Part shown: positions 4,239-14,343 of the stretch, in pieces | Position numbering within the stretch: the stretch's first letter is position 1 | How the letters are laid out: each line of letters begins with the position of its first letter | Translations under genes and position numbers: made by a program | Notes under the pieces: model-generated | The model's input: the letters and a program-made list of their open reading frames with translations, nothing else | What the model was told of the DNA's origin: nothing | Database searches by the model: none | Source: Nitrospiraceae bacterium | GTDB lineage: Bacteria; Nitrospirota; Thermodesulfovibrionia; Thermodesulfovibrionales; UBA1546 | Assembly (NCBI GenBank): GCA_003599795.1 | Contig: QZJQ01000063.1 | Span: forward strand, 1 to 33,157 | DNA length: 33,157 bases | Direction: 5' to 3'

Positions 4239-4247
4239 GGAATGATA

Positions 4248-5888
4248 ATGGAAAAAATAGGGAACCTCCTGAAGACAAAAGGCATTGTCAGCGAGAAACA
4301 GATGCAGGTGGCCTTAATCCAGCAGGAAATAACAGGCGATCTGCTTGGCGACACTCTCATAAAACTGGGGTTCGTAACATCAAGAGAACTGGGGCAGATA
4401 CTTGCGGAACAGTCCGGCCTGGAGTTTGTGGATTTCGGTGAATACGCCATTGAGGAAGAGGCCCTGAAGATAATACCCAAAGAGACTGCGGAAAAAGCTG
4501 AATTCATCCCTCTTGAAATGAAAAACGGGCAGCTCAGCATCGGAATTACTAATCCGAGCAACATATCGGCAGTTGACACTGTTACCAGACTTACGAAAAA
4601 GCAGCCGCATGTCTGTGTAATAGATAAAGACAGTTTCCGTGATGCCTTAGAGCGTGCCTATTTCTTCATGGAAAACCCGACTCAGCAGGGCATAAGGAAC
4701 GCCATTGCTGAGATGAAGGCTGCCGGAATTGCAGCGGGCACAACCGTGACAAAACTAACAGACCTTATCATTATAGACGGTTTCAGAAGAAATGCCTCCG
4801 ACATCCATATTAACCCGACGCCGGATATCGTTCATGTATTTTACAGGGTGGACGGCATTCTTCAGTACGGGCACGGAATTCCGAAAACAGCCCACAACGG
4901 GATAGTGTCCAGAATAAAGGTGCTGTCCGAGATGGATATAGCAGAGCAGCGGCTGCCTCAGGACGGCTCTTTCAATTTTACTTTCCTCAATAAGCAATAT
5001 GACATACGCGTATCTACGGTCCCCACCATATACGGAGAAAATATTGTAATGAGAATCCTTGCGGGCGTCGGCCCGTTCCTGAGAGTTGAAAAACTGGGAT
5101 TTGACGAGCCTAACGTTAAAAAAATAAAATCACTCTTTCTTAAACCGTACGGGATAATACTGATTACAGGGCCTACAGGAAGCGGCAAAACAACAACTCT
5201 TTACGCTGCCTTAAGGGAAATAAACCTTCTTGAAAAAAATGTTTTCACAGTTGAAGACCCCGTGGAATACAAGTTAAGCCTGATTAAGCAGACGCAGGTA
5301 AATGAAAAAGCCGGATATGACTTCGCTGTTGCAGGCAGAAACTTTATGAGGCAGGACCCTAATGTGATGCTCCTTGGCGAAATAAGGGATGAGGAAACGG
5401 CAAGAATAGCCATACGCGCTGCGCTGACGGGTCAGCTTGTTCTTTCCACCCTTCATGCCAATGACGCCGTAACTGCAATACCGCGGCTCATAGACCTGAA
5501 TGTGGACCGTTTTCTTATATCTTCTTCCCTTCTCGCAATAGTTGCGCAGAGGCTTGTCAGAAAAATATGCAGCCATTGCAAGGCAAAATACGATTTAAAT
5601 GAGAGTGAGCTTTCTGTCTTTAAGGAGAATGCAATTGATTTAACATCTGCCCTTAAAGGCAAGGGCTGCCCGCGCTGCAACGGCACGGGATATATGGGAA
5701 GAACAGTCATCGGCGAAATATTAGTTCTGGATGATGAGATAAAAGATATGATATATTCGGGGGCCTCTGCGCCGGCAATTCAGGCAGCAGCAATAAGAAA
5801 GGGTTTGCGGCCGTTAAAAGAGGATGCCGTTAGAAAAGCCGCCTCGGGCATAACGACACTGGATGAGGTATTAAGGGTAACAGGCTGA
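4248..5888 (+). CDS. mshE: Pilus assembly ATPase, MshE/PilB/GspE family
   Basis: About 546 aa. An N-terminal MshEN-type domain (1-140) precedes the secretion-ATPase core. Numbered from the ATG at 4242, Walker A is GPTGSGKTT (310-318), the Asp box lies near 335-340 (VEDPVEY) and Walker B is VMLLGE (375-380). A zinc-binding four-Cys motif is at 443, 446, 476 and 479. This hexameric cytoplasmic motor powers pilin polymerisation. MshEN domains in MshE and PilB relatives bind c-di-GMP, which fits a c-di-GMP enzyme gene at the other end of the locus. I prefer ATG 4248 over 4242 because the only Shine-Dalgarno (TAGGG, 4236-4240) is 1 nt from 4242 but 7 nt from 4248. Confidence 0.92.
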   Translation: MEKIGNLLKTKGIVSEKQMQVALIQQEITGDLLGDTLIKLGFVTSRELGQILAEQSGLEFVDFGEYAIEEEALKIIPKETAEKAEFIPLEMKNGQLSIGITNPSNISAVDTVTRLTKKQPHVCVIDKDSFRDALERAYFFMENPTQQGIRNAIAEMKAAGIAAGTTVTKLTDLIIIDGFRRNASDIHINPTPDIVHVFYRVDGILQYGHGIPKTAHNGIVSRIKVLSEMDIAEQRLPQDGSFNFTFLNKQYDIRVSTVPTIYGENIVMRILAGVGPFLRVEKLGFDEPNVKKIKSLFLKPYGIILITGPTGSGKTTTLYAALREINLLEKNVFTVEDPVEYKLSLIKQTQVNEKAGYDFAVAGRNFMRQDPNVMLLGEIRDEETARIAIRAALTGQLVLSTLHANDAVTAIPRLIDLNVDRFLISSSLLAIVAQRLVRKICSHCKAKYDLNESELSVFKENAIDLTSALKGKGCPRCNGTGYMGRTVIGEILVLDDEIKDMIYSGASAPAIQAAAIRKGLRPLKEDAVRKAASGITTLDEVLRVTG

Positions 5889-9985: not shown

Positions 9986-10014
9986 TTGACAGGGCAATCA
10001 AATAAGGTTATATT
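9986..10014 (+). promoter_or_regulatory. Strong sigma-70-type promoter of the pilin genes
   Basis: TTGACA (9986-9991), a 17-nt spacer and TATATT (10009-10014) form a near-consensus promoter. The expected transcription start is near 10021, giving a leader of about 35 nt before the proposed AUU start at 10056. A strong promoter suits a major pilin. Confidence 0.75.
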
Positions 10015-10055
10015 TATATAAAAATTTATTAAAAACATGCAGTTGCGGAGGGAAG

Positions 10056-10706
10056 ATTAAGCAAGGGCGCAAAAACAGAAAAGGCTTTACCCTGATTGAA
10101 TTGTCAATAGTCCTCGTAATAATCGGGATTCTGATCGGAGCTGTTCTCAAGGGACAGGATCTCATTAACAGCGCAAGGGCCAAGAAATTTGTAAACTGGG
10201 CCAAGCAGTGGGAGATTACGCAGTGGACCTATCTTGACAGAAAAGGCAGGTTTGCAGGAGATGCTAATATCAACGGCATCATAGGAGACCAGACTTCAAC
10301 AATAGATGAGACATCAAGTTCAAACACTGCTCTGGATGAAATAGCAAATGCAAACTTCATTAACCCTCCTACAGCTACAATAACTTTGGGCTCGTTTAGA
10401 TTTTTTATGAAAATGGGGTTTAACACTGTAAGCGGGACTTCAAAAAATGTAATCGTGATATGCAAATCCGACGCCTGCACAACAGCATTCGCAGCAGATG
10501 AAATTGTCTATTTTGAATCTTTTGACACAGCCACCGACGGCACTGCCGATGCAGGAGCTGGAAATGTCAGGGCGGCTACGGCAATAACTTTAGCAGCCGG
10601 ATCCGGAAACGAAGTTGTCGCTGCAACAACTGACGTTACGGCATCTCCGGCAGCATGGGGCACGACGCATGTAGCTCTGGTTTATTATTTTGACCGGCCC
10701 CGTTAA
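10056..10706 (+). CDS. Type IV major-pilin-like prepilin with a probable AUU start
   Basis: 216 aa if read from ATT 10056. The leader would be 10 basic residues ending in Gly (MKQGRKNRKG), followed by FTLIELSIVLVIIGILIGAVL, the classic class III signal cut by prepilin peptidase, with Glu5 present. A globular domain with one Cys pair (CKSDAC) and a Gly/Ala/Thr-rich C-terminal part follows. No ATG, GTG or TTG occurs in frame between the upstream stop at 9987 and the TTG at 10101; that TTG would delete the cleavage site and Glu5. GGAGGG (10047-10052) lies 3 nt before the ATT. The only nearby ATG (10037) is in another frame and stops after seven codons. Confidence 0.82.
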   Translation: MKQGRKNRKGFTLIELSIVLVIIGILIGAVLKGQDLINSARAKKFVNWAKQWEITQWTYLDRKGRFAGDANINGIIGDQTSTIDETSSSNTALDEIANANFINPPTATITLGSFRFFMKMGFNTVSGTSKNVIVICKSDACTTAFAADEIVYFESFDTATDGTADAGAGNVRAATAITLAAGSGNEVVAATTDVTASPAAWGTTHVALVYYFDRPR

Positions 10707-10739
10707 TCCCCCGGGCTTTTCTATGCTATTCTCTTAGGT

Positions 10740-12020
10740 ATGGAGCCCCTAACCAAAAATAAAGGCCTCACCCTTATAGAACTTGCAGTGGTGCTGGTTG
10801 TTATCGGCATATTGATTACCCTCGGAGTGTCTTTGATAGGCCCTCTGACAAAGAGGGTAAAGATAAACCAGACCAATGATATCATAGATGCGGCAGCAGA
10901 GTCTTTGATAAGTTATGCTTCTTCAAACAAGCGGCTTCCCACAACAACCGAATTTACAAGCGCAGTAAGGAATCCTAAGGACGCATGGACCAAATCTTTG
11001 TTTTATGTAACAGACACCAATCTGACGACTATAACATCTCCGGCAGTAGAAGCTGTCTGCGGCAGGAGCACGACAAATTTAACCGTTCAGACCTGTCCAG
11101 ACGCTGCATGCGCATCCCCGACAAATACTATTCCGAATGTGGCATTCATAATCATCAGCAGCGGTGCCAATAACAACAATCAGACCGCAGGGACTCAGGC
11201 GGTCTCATCGGCAACAACTGTTAGTGTATACGATGTGGATGTTGCCGGTATTGATAATTATGCAGGAGATATCGGAGGCACACGGACGGAGCCTTATGAC
11301 GATCTTGTCAAATGGACCACCCTCAATGAACTAAGGACCAAGGCCGGGTGCGCAGGGCCCCAACTGGAAATTGTAAATAATGATCTCCCTGCCGGCTTCA
11401 GGGATGCAACGGTATACGATGCCACAGTATTTGCCAAAGGAGGCGTGCCTTTTACTACTACGAACCAGAGCTACAGGTGGTGCATCCAGAGAACCCCTGC
11501 CACAGCCCCGTCAAATCTGACCTTCAGAAACACTGCCAATACGGCAAATATTGTATTTTCCACAGACTGTTCAGCCCTTGCCGAAGCTTCATGGACGCAA
11601 TCAAATACAGTTGTTATATCCGGGTCTCCCAATGAGTCGGGGAGCTTTAATCTCACCTTTTTTGCGAGGGACAATAATGACCCTGCAGGAACGAGCGACA
11701 ATATAGCTCAGAAGCTCCTCGTGCTGACAATCCATCAGGTGGCACGCAGCACGGGCTGCTCGGGCTTCAGGGTATGGAATGCAACCGGTGCAGCAAGGAT
11801 CTTCAGGCTTGACAGCGTATGCAGTAGCGTAGGCAACAACCAAGAGATTACCGTTGACCCGACCCGTCTCCTTAATTCCGGCGAGATTATTGAACGCTTC
11901 ACAACCGCTGGCTGTGTCGGCCTTGTTGACTCAATAACATTCAATCAGGCAGTGAACGCCGATGCTTTGGACAATGACTGTCAGGTAAACTACGAGACAA
12001 CAGGTGTGACCAACAGATGA
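10740..12020 (+). CDS. Long prepilin-like protein with an Ig-like C-terminal region
   Basis: 426 aa, much longer than ordinary pilins. The leader MEPLTKNKG is followed by LTLIELAVVLVVIGILITLG, with Glu5 of the mature protein intact. Residues ~35-200 form a Cys-containing pilin-like domain. Residues ~220-330 resemble a putative Ig (He_PIG-like) fold: DLPAGFRDATV..., then VVISGSPNESGSFNLTFFARDNN. The last ~95 residues have several Cys (SVCSS, TAGCVG, DNDCQ) that could form disulfides. It could be a minor, tip-located or adhesive pilin like MshO/MshP/MshQ. The start has only a weak AGG 2 nt upstream and lies 33 nt after the first pilin, so it is probably co-transcribed. Confidence 0.75.
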   Translation: MEPLTKNKGLTLIELAVVLVVIGILITLGVSLIGPLTKRVKINQTNDIIDAAAESLISYASSNKRLPTTTEFTSAVRNPKDAWTKSLFYVTDTNLTTITSPAVEAVCGRSTTNLTVQTCPDAACASPTNTIPNVAFIIISSGANNNNQTAGTQAVSSATTVSVYDVDVAGIDNYAGDIGGTRTEPYDDLVKWTTLNELRTKAGCAGPQLEIVNNDLPAGFRDATVYDATVFAKGGVPFTTTNQSYRWCIQRTPATAPSNLTFRNTANTANIVFSTDCSALAEASWTQSNTVVISGSPNESGSFNLTFFARDNNDPAGTSDNIAQKLLVLTIHQVARSTGCSGFRVWNATGAARIFRLDSVCSSVGNNQEITVDPTRLLNSGEIIERFTTAGCVGLVDSITFNQAVNADALDNDCQVNYETTGVTNR

Positions 12021-12141: not shown

Positions 12142-14106
12142 ATGGCGCAGAAGGATACACTTGACATAAAATCTCTGCAGGGAAAATCAAAAGCAATCAA
12201 CCTCTTTCTTGGGTTAGGGCCTCTCTGCCTTTCGCTTATTGTGCTTGCCTTTATGTTTTTTGCCGGACTGCTTATTCCTCAGCTTTCGCAACTCACAGCT
12301 TTATCTCCTGTCTTAAGGCAGGCTGTTAATTTATCTGCGCCCGCCTTGGTTATTATCTTTTTCGCTCTTTATTTTTTATTCAGGCTGCTGCTTTCAAAAG
12401 CCTCTGAATGCCAAAGATTAGAGGACCGCGGACTCCTTGCGTACAATGTATTAGACAGCAGCAACAATCCTATCCTCATCACAGATGCGCAGGCAAATAT
12501 TGAATATGTAAATCCCGCCTTCTGCTTTGCAACAGGCTATGCAAAAGAGGAGCTTATAGGACAAAAACCGAATATTATGAAATCCGGGAAACATAACCGG
12601 GAATTTTACATGGAGATGTGGAAAACAATAAAAGAGACAGGGCGATGGCAGGGCGAGATATGGGATAAACGCAAGAACGGCGATATATATCCAAAGTGGC
12701 TCTCAATAAGCGCTATTAAAAACAGCAGGGGTGAAACCGTAAAATACTCAGGGCTTTTTTCAGACATAACCGCCTTGAAACAAACAGAGGAACAAATTGA
12801 ACATCTCTCCAACTATGACAGCCTGACAAACCTTCCGAATCGCAGGCTGTTTCTGGACCGATTAAATCAGGCCTTGCTTGGCGCTGAACGCAATAATCGC
12901 GCGCTCGCAGTTATGTTCGTTGACATTAACCGTTTTAAGAACATAAATAATACATTCGGCCACAGCGCCGGCGACCAGTTAATTAAAGAATTTTCCAAAA
13001 GAGTTTCGGGGTGCATGCGCAAGGAAGACACTGTGGGGCATATAAGCGGAAACAGCTTCGCCATAATCCTGCCGGCAATTGAAGGCAAAGAGAGCGCAGA
13101 GGTTGTCAGCAGAAAAATTATTGATTCAATGTTAAGCCCGTTTATTCTTAAAGGACACAAGGTCATTGTTTCTGCAAGCATCGGAATTGCTCTTTATCCC
13201 TTGGACAGCGACAAGCTGGAAATGCTGATTAAAAATGCTGAAACAGCCATGTATAATGCCAAGGAGCATGGCGACAACAGAATTCAGTTCTATAACAATG
13301 CGATGGGCGATATGACTTTTCAGCGTCTCAGCATAGAGGCAAACATTAGAGAGGCGCTTGAGCGTGAAGAGTTTGTGCTTTATTACCAGCCTGTGGTGAA
13401 TCTGAATAGCGGAATGATAAGCGGGATGGAAGCTCTTATACGGAGACAGGAGCCTGAATGGGTGGCCCCTCCTTCAAAGTTCATTGAACTTGCAGAAGAG
13501 ACCGGATTAATCCTGCAGATTTGTGAATGGACTCTCCGCAAGGCATGCCGGCAAAACAAGCTCTGGCAGGCTGAAGGCTTACCGCCAATGCATATTGCAG
13601 TCAATATAGCGTCCAGCCAGTTTTACGAGGGAAGGCTTATAAAAACAGTCACAGACGTCTTAAGGGAGACAGGCCTTGAGCCGAAATATCTTGAACTTGA
13701 ACTTATTGAGCGGCTGATAATGCAGGATTCTGCGGCTTCCATAAATATGATGCAAGATTTAAAAAAGCTGGGGACAATGATTTCGGTAGATGATTTCGGC
13801 ACAGGCTACTCTTCTTTAAACTATCTGAGGCTGTTCCCTGTAGATAAGCTCAAAATTGACCAGTCATTTGTAAGGGATATAGCTCACGATTCAAGCAGCG
13901 CTTCTATTTCCAAGGCGATTATAGCGCTTGCTCACAGCCTGAATTTGAAAACCGTCGCAGAAGGCGTAGAGACGGAAGCACAGCTTTCCTTCCTGCGGGA
14001 ATGCGGCTGTGACGAGATGCAGGGTTATTATTTCAGCGTTCCTCTGCCTGCCGAATCTTTTAAGAAATTGGTTCTGAGCGGTAAGAAAATAAGGTATCAG
14101 GAATGA
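12142..14106 (+). CDS. Membrane PAS-GGDEF-EAL protein, probable c-di-GMP phosphodiesterase
   Basis: 654 aa. Two transmembrane helices (about 20-45 and 64-84) are followed by a PAS domain (about 98-213), a GGDEF domain (about 222-385) and an EAL domain (about 395-650). The GGDEF active-site motif is degenerate, SGNSF at 302-306, so cyclase activity is unlikely; the Asp of FVDINRFK is kept. The EAL domain keeps its key motifs: EALIR (430-434), NIASSQF (488-494), ELIE (520-523), DDFGTGYSS (550-558), KID (571-573) and AEGVE (606-610). c-di-GMP hydrolysis is therefore likely. The pilus ATPase belongs to a c-di-GMP-binding family, so this enzyme may tune pilus activity locally, comparable in position to MshH. 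It ends at a strong terminator. Confidence 0.9.
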   Translation: MAQKDTLDIKSLQGKSKAINLFLGLGPLCLSLIVLAFMFFAGLLIPQLSQLTALSPVLRQAVNLSAPALVIIFFALYFLFRLLLSKASECQRLEDRGLLAYNVLDSSNNPILITDAQANIEYVNPAFCFATGYAKEELIGQKPNIMKSGKHNREFYMEMWKTIKETGRWQGEIWDKRKNGDIYPKWLSISAIKNSRGETVKYSGLFSDITALKQTEEQIEHLSNYDSLTNLPNRRLFLDRLNQALLGAERNNRALAVMFVDINRFKNINNTFGHSAGDQLIKEFSKRVSGCMRKEDTVGHISGNSFAIILPAIEGKESAEVVSRKIIDSMLSPFILKGHKVIVSASIGIALYPLDSDKLEMLIKNAETAMYNAKEHGDNRIQFYNNAMGDMTFQRLSIEANIREALEREEFVLYYQPVVNLNSGMISGMEALIRRQEPEWVAPPSKFIELAEETGLILQICEWTLRKACRQNKLWQAEGLPPMHIAVNIASSQFYEGRLIKTVTDVLRETGLEPKYLELELIERLIMQDSAASINMMQDLKKLGTMISVDDFGTGYSSLNYLRLFPVDKLKIDQSFVRDIAHDSSSASISKAIIALAHSLNLKTVAEGVETEAQLSFLRECGCDEMQGYYFSVPLPAESFKKLVLSGKKIRYQE

Positions 14107-14142: not shown

Positions 14143-14343
14143 TTAGAGTTTTGTAACGTTTGCTGCCTTTGGGCCCTTAGGGCTGTCAACAACATCAAAG
14201 CTCACTGCCTGTCCTTCAGCAAGAGACTTAAAGCCGTCTCCCTGAAGCGCAGAATAGTGAACAAAAACATCTCCGCCGTCTTCACTGGTTATAAATCCAA
14301 AACCCTTGGACTCATTAAACCACTTAACGGTTCCTTTTGCCAC
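14143..14343 (-). CDS. Cold-shock protein (CspA family)
   Basis: 66 aa, the standard length. It is a single OB-fold cold-shock domain with RNP1 as [12 protein letters not shown] and RNP2 as DVFVHYSAL, both intact. Csp proteins bind single-stranded RNA and act as RNA chaperones. The start is GTG at 14343 with AGGAGG 9 nt upstream. The frame is also open further upstream to 14445, but that extension translates the leader hairpin and has no family similarity. Upstream lie a terminator-like hairpin and a promoter, suggesting control by conditional termination in the leader. Confidence 0.95.

Follow-up and report, generated by a model that had tools for sequence, protein, structure and literature searches.

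A type IV prepilin gene in an MSHA-like cluster is very probably translated from an AUU codon, namely, the ATT at position 10056 of the window, as we call the whole stretch of 33,157 nucleotides that was analysed. The window is one of the 63 contigs of a draft genome, presumably a MAG, with a size of 1.40 Mb and a completeness of 74.7%. As the first-pass annotation had claimed, the frame encodes the prepilin signal with no ATG, GTG or TTG between an upstream in-frame TGA (9987-9989) and GGC 10083, the glycine codon of the prepilin motif, and it is open from that TGA up to the stop codon of the gene (10704-10706). The same annotation had singled out ATT 10056 for its place close behind a Shine-Dalgarno sequence and for the ten-residue basic leader ending in glycine that it gives. 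Both features were borne out: the gap between GGAGG and ATT is 4 nt, and the leader reads IKQGRKNRKG, followed by FTLIELSIVLVIIG.

The start region and its setting

The elements of the start region are the following:

9986-10014, plus strand: predicted sigma-70-like promoter, TTGACA (9986-9991), 17 nt, TATATT (10009-10014), 11/12 match
9987-9989, plus strand: upstream in-frame stop TGA, which sits within the -35 hexamer
10037-10060, plus strand: ORF of 7 codons from ATG 10037, out of the pilin frame, ending at TAA 10058-10060 over the ATT; its start is not conserved
10047-10051, plus strand: Shine-Dalgarno sequence GGAGG, unchanged in 3/3 close sequences
10056-10058, plus strand: ATT, the candidate AUU start codon, unchanged in 3/3 close sequences
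10056-10085, plus strand: basic prepilin leader of 10 codons, the last for glycine, with cleavage predicted before Phe 10086
10056-10706, plus strand: gene for the type IV prepilin, of 216 codons plus the stop codon, in the MSHA-like cluster

We propose that GGAGG, 4 nt upstream, would position the ribosome on AUU 10056, where the initiator tRNA would pair with one mismatch, so that the pilin would begin with formyl-methionine; prepilin peptidase would then remove the basic leader. The Shine-Dalgarno sequence is 5 nt long with a short spacing, and not of the extended type. A structure hiding the start was rejected, as folding of the predicted mRNA over its first 90 nt does not exceed that of shuffled sequences (z of 1.16, 0.65 and 0.05), and the initiation site therefore looks accessible. 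Two internal candidates were also discarded, namely, CTG 10092, for which the relatives have CTT and CTC, and TTG 10101, which would delete the prepilin signal and is TTA in both relatives. The latter is nevertheless the first start available to gene calling limited to ATG, GTG and TTG; the prepilin motif is therefore lost from a pilin annotated in this way, which makes the gene an annotation problem too.

The encoded protein has the features of a type IV prepilin, with a basic leader, the motif G^F-T-L-x-E and a hydrophobic stretch, and two models match it above their cut-offs, namely, Pfam N_methyl (37.1 bits for a threshold of 21.2, E=2e-9) and TIGR02532 (32.6 bits for 16.3, E=4.5e-8). The product may be the major pilin that the first-pass annotation took it for; when the pilin body was compared with named families, MshA included, the prepilin domain model was the only one above cut-off. 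An AlphaFold2 model from just three sequences (mean pLDDT 42.7, pTM 0.38) is too poor to use; at this low confidence it has a helix at residues 13-63 and is best near residues 11-30. The cluster holds an MshL secretin upstream (TIGR02519, 256 bits against a cut-off of 250.2), a PilB/GspE-type ATPase (4242-5888), whose body is below equivalog cut-offs and which carries a c-di-GMP motif of the MshE type (50.9 bits with NF053729, cut-off 38), and, also upstream, a PilC/GspF-type protein below its equivalog cut-off. Judged from these three genes, the filament is therefore most like MSHA pili.

Two further genes lie beyond the pilins. The protein encoded just past the pilins, at 12142-14106, reads by eye like a GGDEF-EAL enzyme, and a cold-shock-like gene (14143-14343) has GTG 14343, after AAGGAGGT, as its probable start, the longer TTG ORF overshooting.

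Conservation and selection among close relatives

We searched for orthologues of the pilin in 149 genomes near that of the window and in 176 of its order. Two close ones were obtained, from the Nitrospirae MAG records G015 (match position as in JACRGY010000132.1) and G014 (as in SCSY01000142.1), with 93% and 88% protein identity to the window pilin, respectively, whereas the next best is 64% identical. The alignment of these start regions, proposed as a check by the first-pass annotation, gave the following results. First, CGGAGG-N4-ATT-AAR is kept in 3/3 sequences, and neither relative has ATG or GTG at the position of the ATT. Second, a canonical in-frame start is strictly absent from two of the three, namely, the window and G014; in G014 an in-frame TAG lies six codons upstream of the ATT, and its start is therefore confined to an interval that holds the ATT. 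Third, no ATG, GTG or TTG in any frame is common to all three within 45 nt upstream of the ATT, and when 17 in-frame codons (-7 to +9) were compared, the ATT alone differed from ATG by a single base in each of the three sequences. All 3/3 close sequences keep a near-cognate codon whose spacing behind the Shine-Dalgarno sequence is suitable for initiation. Codon identity at the ATT would alone be a weak argument, since 9 of 15 Ile codons conserved inside the pilin gene are likewise identical in all three.

The orthologue from G015 has a single in-frame TTG, nine codons upstream of the ATT, which could suggest that each species uses a less obvious start of its own, TTG in G015 and other codons elsewhere. 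We consider this very unlikely, as no Shine-Dalgarno sequence is visible ahead of that TTG, the same place is taken by a GTG in G014, closed off by the TAG, and by TTA in the window, and the Shine-Dalgarno sequence with its ATT is the one arrangement that all three have in common.

The out-of-frame ATG 10037 offers another route, by a frameshift into the pilin frame or by translation of the short ORF and re-initiation at the AUU. The first-pass annotation had noted that this ATG lies in another frame, and reading that frame gave the ORF of 7 codons listed above. The ATG is present in the window, its ORF ends over the ATT, and G015 shares with the window a TTG that lies 13 nt upstream of the ATT in the frame of this ATG. 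This TTG is absent from G014, where that frame is free of canonical starts over the 45 nt read; at the aligned place of the ATG itself the relatives have ACG (G015) and ATA (G014), no indel that would restore the frame of 10037 occurs in either, and the short ORF would cross the Shine-Dalgarno sequence. With the ATG not conserved, we ruled out this extremely improbable route and retained initiation at the AUU.

Purifying selection bears on whether the gene is intact. The dN/dS values of the pilin are 0.085 (window and G015), 0.081 (window and G014) and 0.112 (G015 and G014), with dS of 0.455, 0.918 and 0.661, respectively, and the gene looks functional and under purifying selection. A sequencing or assembly error, or a decaying gene, might be suspected behind the missing ATG in a draft genome as incomplete and fragmented as this one. 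However, the frame is open, the identical ATT is found in two other MAG records, and at dN/dS of 0.08-0.11 a pseudogene or local error is an unlikely source of the missing ATG; on these values we dismissed error or decay, which we regard as next to impossible.

The three sequences are not fully independent, given that the pilin block has apparently been exchanged between lineages. This is suggested by the comparison of the window with G015, where the pilin (93% protein identity, dS 0.455) and the next prepilin-like gene (94%, dS 0.416), which together span 10056-12020 of the window and 3283-5249 of L047, are closer than the genes beside them, namely, a transglycosylase (63%, dS 1.366) and those that we take, by position and recall, to be mshN (61%, dS 1.286) and mshM (85%, dS 0.975). 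In G008 the cluster retains only some 22 C-terminal codons of the pilin (L034, 5001-5066), an apparent deletion, and this remnant overlaps the 5' end of the presumed mshN frame on the opposite strand.

The first-pass annotation had also placed the pilin under a strong promoter. The window has the near-consensus TTGACA-17-TATATT, and the -35 hexamer and the 17-nt spacing were found again in both relatives (TTGACA-17-TAATAT in G015 and TTGACA-17-TAGTAT in G014), but their -10 hexamers are weaker, at 4/6 each.

Starts of prepilin genes in the family, order and phylum

We read the upstream frame of 258 N-termini of the prepilin type for which the preceding stop could be located (two incomplete ones were left out); unusual cases are over-represented in this set, since ATH patterns served to pick part of the loci. 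The frame holds an ATG in 237, a GTG without ATG in 11, only TTG in five and no canonical start in five. The TTG-only group includes the orthologue from G015, and the group with no canonical start consists of the window pilin, its orthologue from G014, and frames from G132, G078 and G008 (L154). Within the family (f1), 3/122 prepilin N-termini among the matches listed are devoid of a canonical start, namely, the window pilin, the orthologue from G014 and G008 L154, a pseudopilin whose leader is repetitive. At the level of the order, ATG is present in 51 of 57 N-termini from the pilin loci, GTG in one, only TTG in two and none in three, and with ATG in 51/57 the AUU of the three-member clade looks like a derived state.

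The phylum-wide search for the prepilin pattern gave matches in 155 of 395 genomes. From the matches listed, 54 were chosen by eye for possible absence of an in-frame ATG and, with the window pilin added, 22 of these 55 are devoid of a canonical start within the match itself. Of the 22, nineteen were extended upstream, the others being the window pilin, G008 L125 and G020 (intervening stop). With upstream sequence, 17/19 have a canonical start; the frame from G044 is not that of a pilin, stopping after 7 codons, and was rejected, and the one from G078 has none.

Two of these loci deserve separate description. On the minus strand of G132:C121 (L018/L178) there is an MSHA-like pilin that has no canonical start and an apparent AUA, with TTGACA-16-TATAAT followed by AAGGAAGGGAAGAAT-ATA-AAA; its relatives in G020 and G042, at 69%, carry ATG. 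The frame in G078:C9 (L170/L198) is a pseudopilin, where an ATT after GGGAGTAGGGCT could serve.

IF3, infC and known non-canonical starts

The analogy with infC drawn by the first-pass annotation has gained in strength. In 11 of 11 family loci (L035-L045, from G000, G001, G005 and G008-G015), that of the window's own genome (G000) included, infC has no ATG, GTG or TTG before its conserved N-terminus, and an ATA lies a few bases past GGAGGT in each. The infC of the family thus appears to start at AUA, and in the window's genome this AUA would provide a recognisable target for discrimination of starts of the IF3 type.

An AUU would make initiation on the pilin mRNA inefficient, so that translation would be low and sensitive to IF3, as in infC, despite the ample mRNA that a near-consensus promoter would supply. 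Taken from infC, sigR and cvfC1, the expectation is that pilin output would probably be lowered and may be under IF3 control; that translation of this pilin responds to IF3 in the cell is a possibility towards which we lean slightly less than against. Nearly an even chance is given to the view that the AUU is used without any regulatory role, either fixed by drift or acting as a weak start of constant level that promoter and Shine-Dalgarno sequence offset, a view that agrees with the AUU start and opposes only the part played by IF3. It is favoured by distant pilins, which mostly manage without AUU, and by cvfC1 of Staphylococcus aureus, where AUU cut expression with no medium-dependent effect (PMC13009471). 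However, the ATT has been retained over dS of up to 0.92 although a single change would turn it into ATG, and infC of the same genomes is also on a near-cognate start.

It is tempting to go further and couple the building of the pilus to IF3, with the AUA of infC and the AUU of the pilin as starts that this factor would discriminate, and with a combination of strong promoter and near-cognate start that may have arisen again in a second pilin, that of G132. We regard this as unlikely; if true, production of the filament would track the balance of IF3 to ribosomes.

AUU starts as such are already known, whereas no pilin with an AUU start, let alone a conserved one, was found in the literature searched (titles and openings of abstracts, with subscription journals largely outside). 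In one study, which reconstructed 61,358 ancestral AUG starts, a change to AUU was recovered a single time (PMC5622118), and such a switch is therefore very rare. The bacterial AUU, AUA and GUC starts in the excerpts of these papers belong to IF3, regulators, enzymes and one small protein of unknown role. If our reading is true, the retention of AUU by a surface filament subunit in three species would show that dosage by near-cognate starts extends to structural proteins.

The known systems compare with the pilin as follows. In E. coli infC, the AUU start underlies autocontrol by IF3 (PMC5472188); it shares with the pilin a near-cognate start, but it encodes IF3 itself rather than a pilus subunit, and the infC of the family has AUA. 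The sigR gene of Streptomyces, with a GTC start whose repression by IF3 was shown experimentally (PMC5472188), is likewise a gene other than infC with a non-canonical start, although the codon differs and the product is a regulator, whereas a pilin is a structural protein. In S. aureus, the starts of cvfC1 (AUU) and ccpN (AUA), measured by ribosome profiling and reporters, have a conserved Shine-Dalgarno sequence, and their reporters, when assayed in poor medium, reach about 10% of the expression obtained with AUG (PMC13009471). They resemble the pilin in having a conserved non-canonical start with a strong Shine-Dalgarno sequence, which is extended there and only 5 nt long here, and neither is a pilin. 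Ordinary genes on an AUU start, as the pilin gene would be, are E. coli pcnB (cited in PMC13009471) and Borrelia pncA (BBE22; PMC13398362), which encode enzymes unrelated to it. With MSHA-type type IV pili, finally, the cluster shares the MshL secretin, the MshE-type motif of the ATPase and the prepilin motif, and it differs from them in a pilin body that has no match to a named MshA family and in a start that would be non-canonical.
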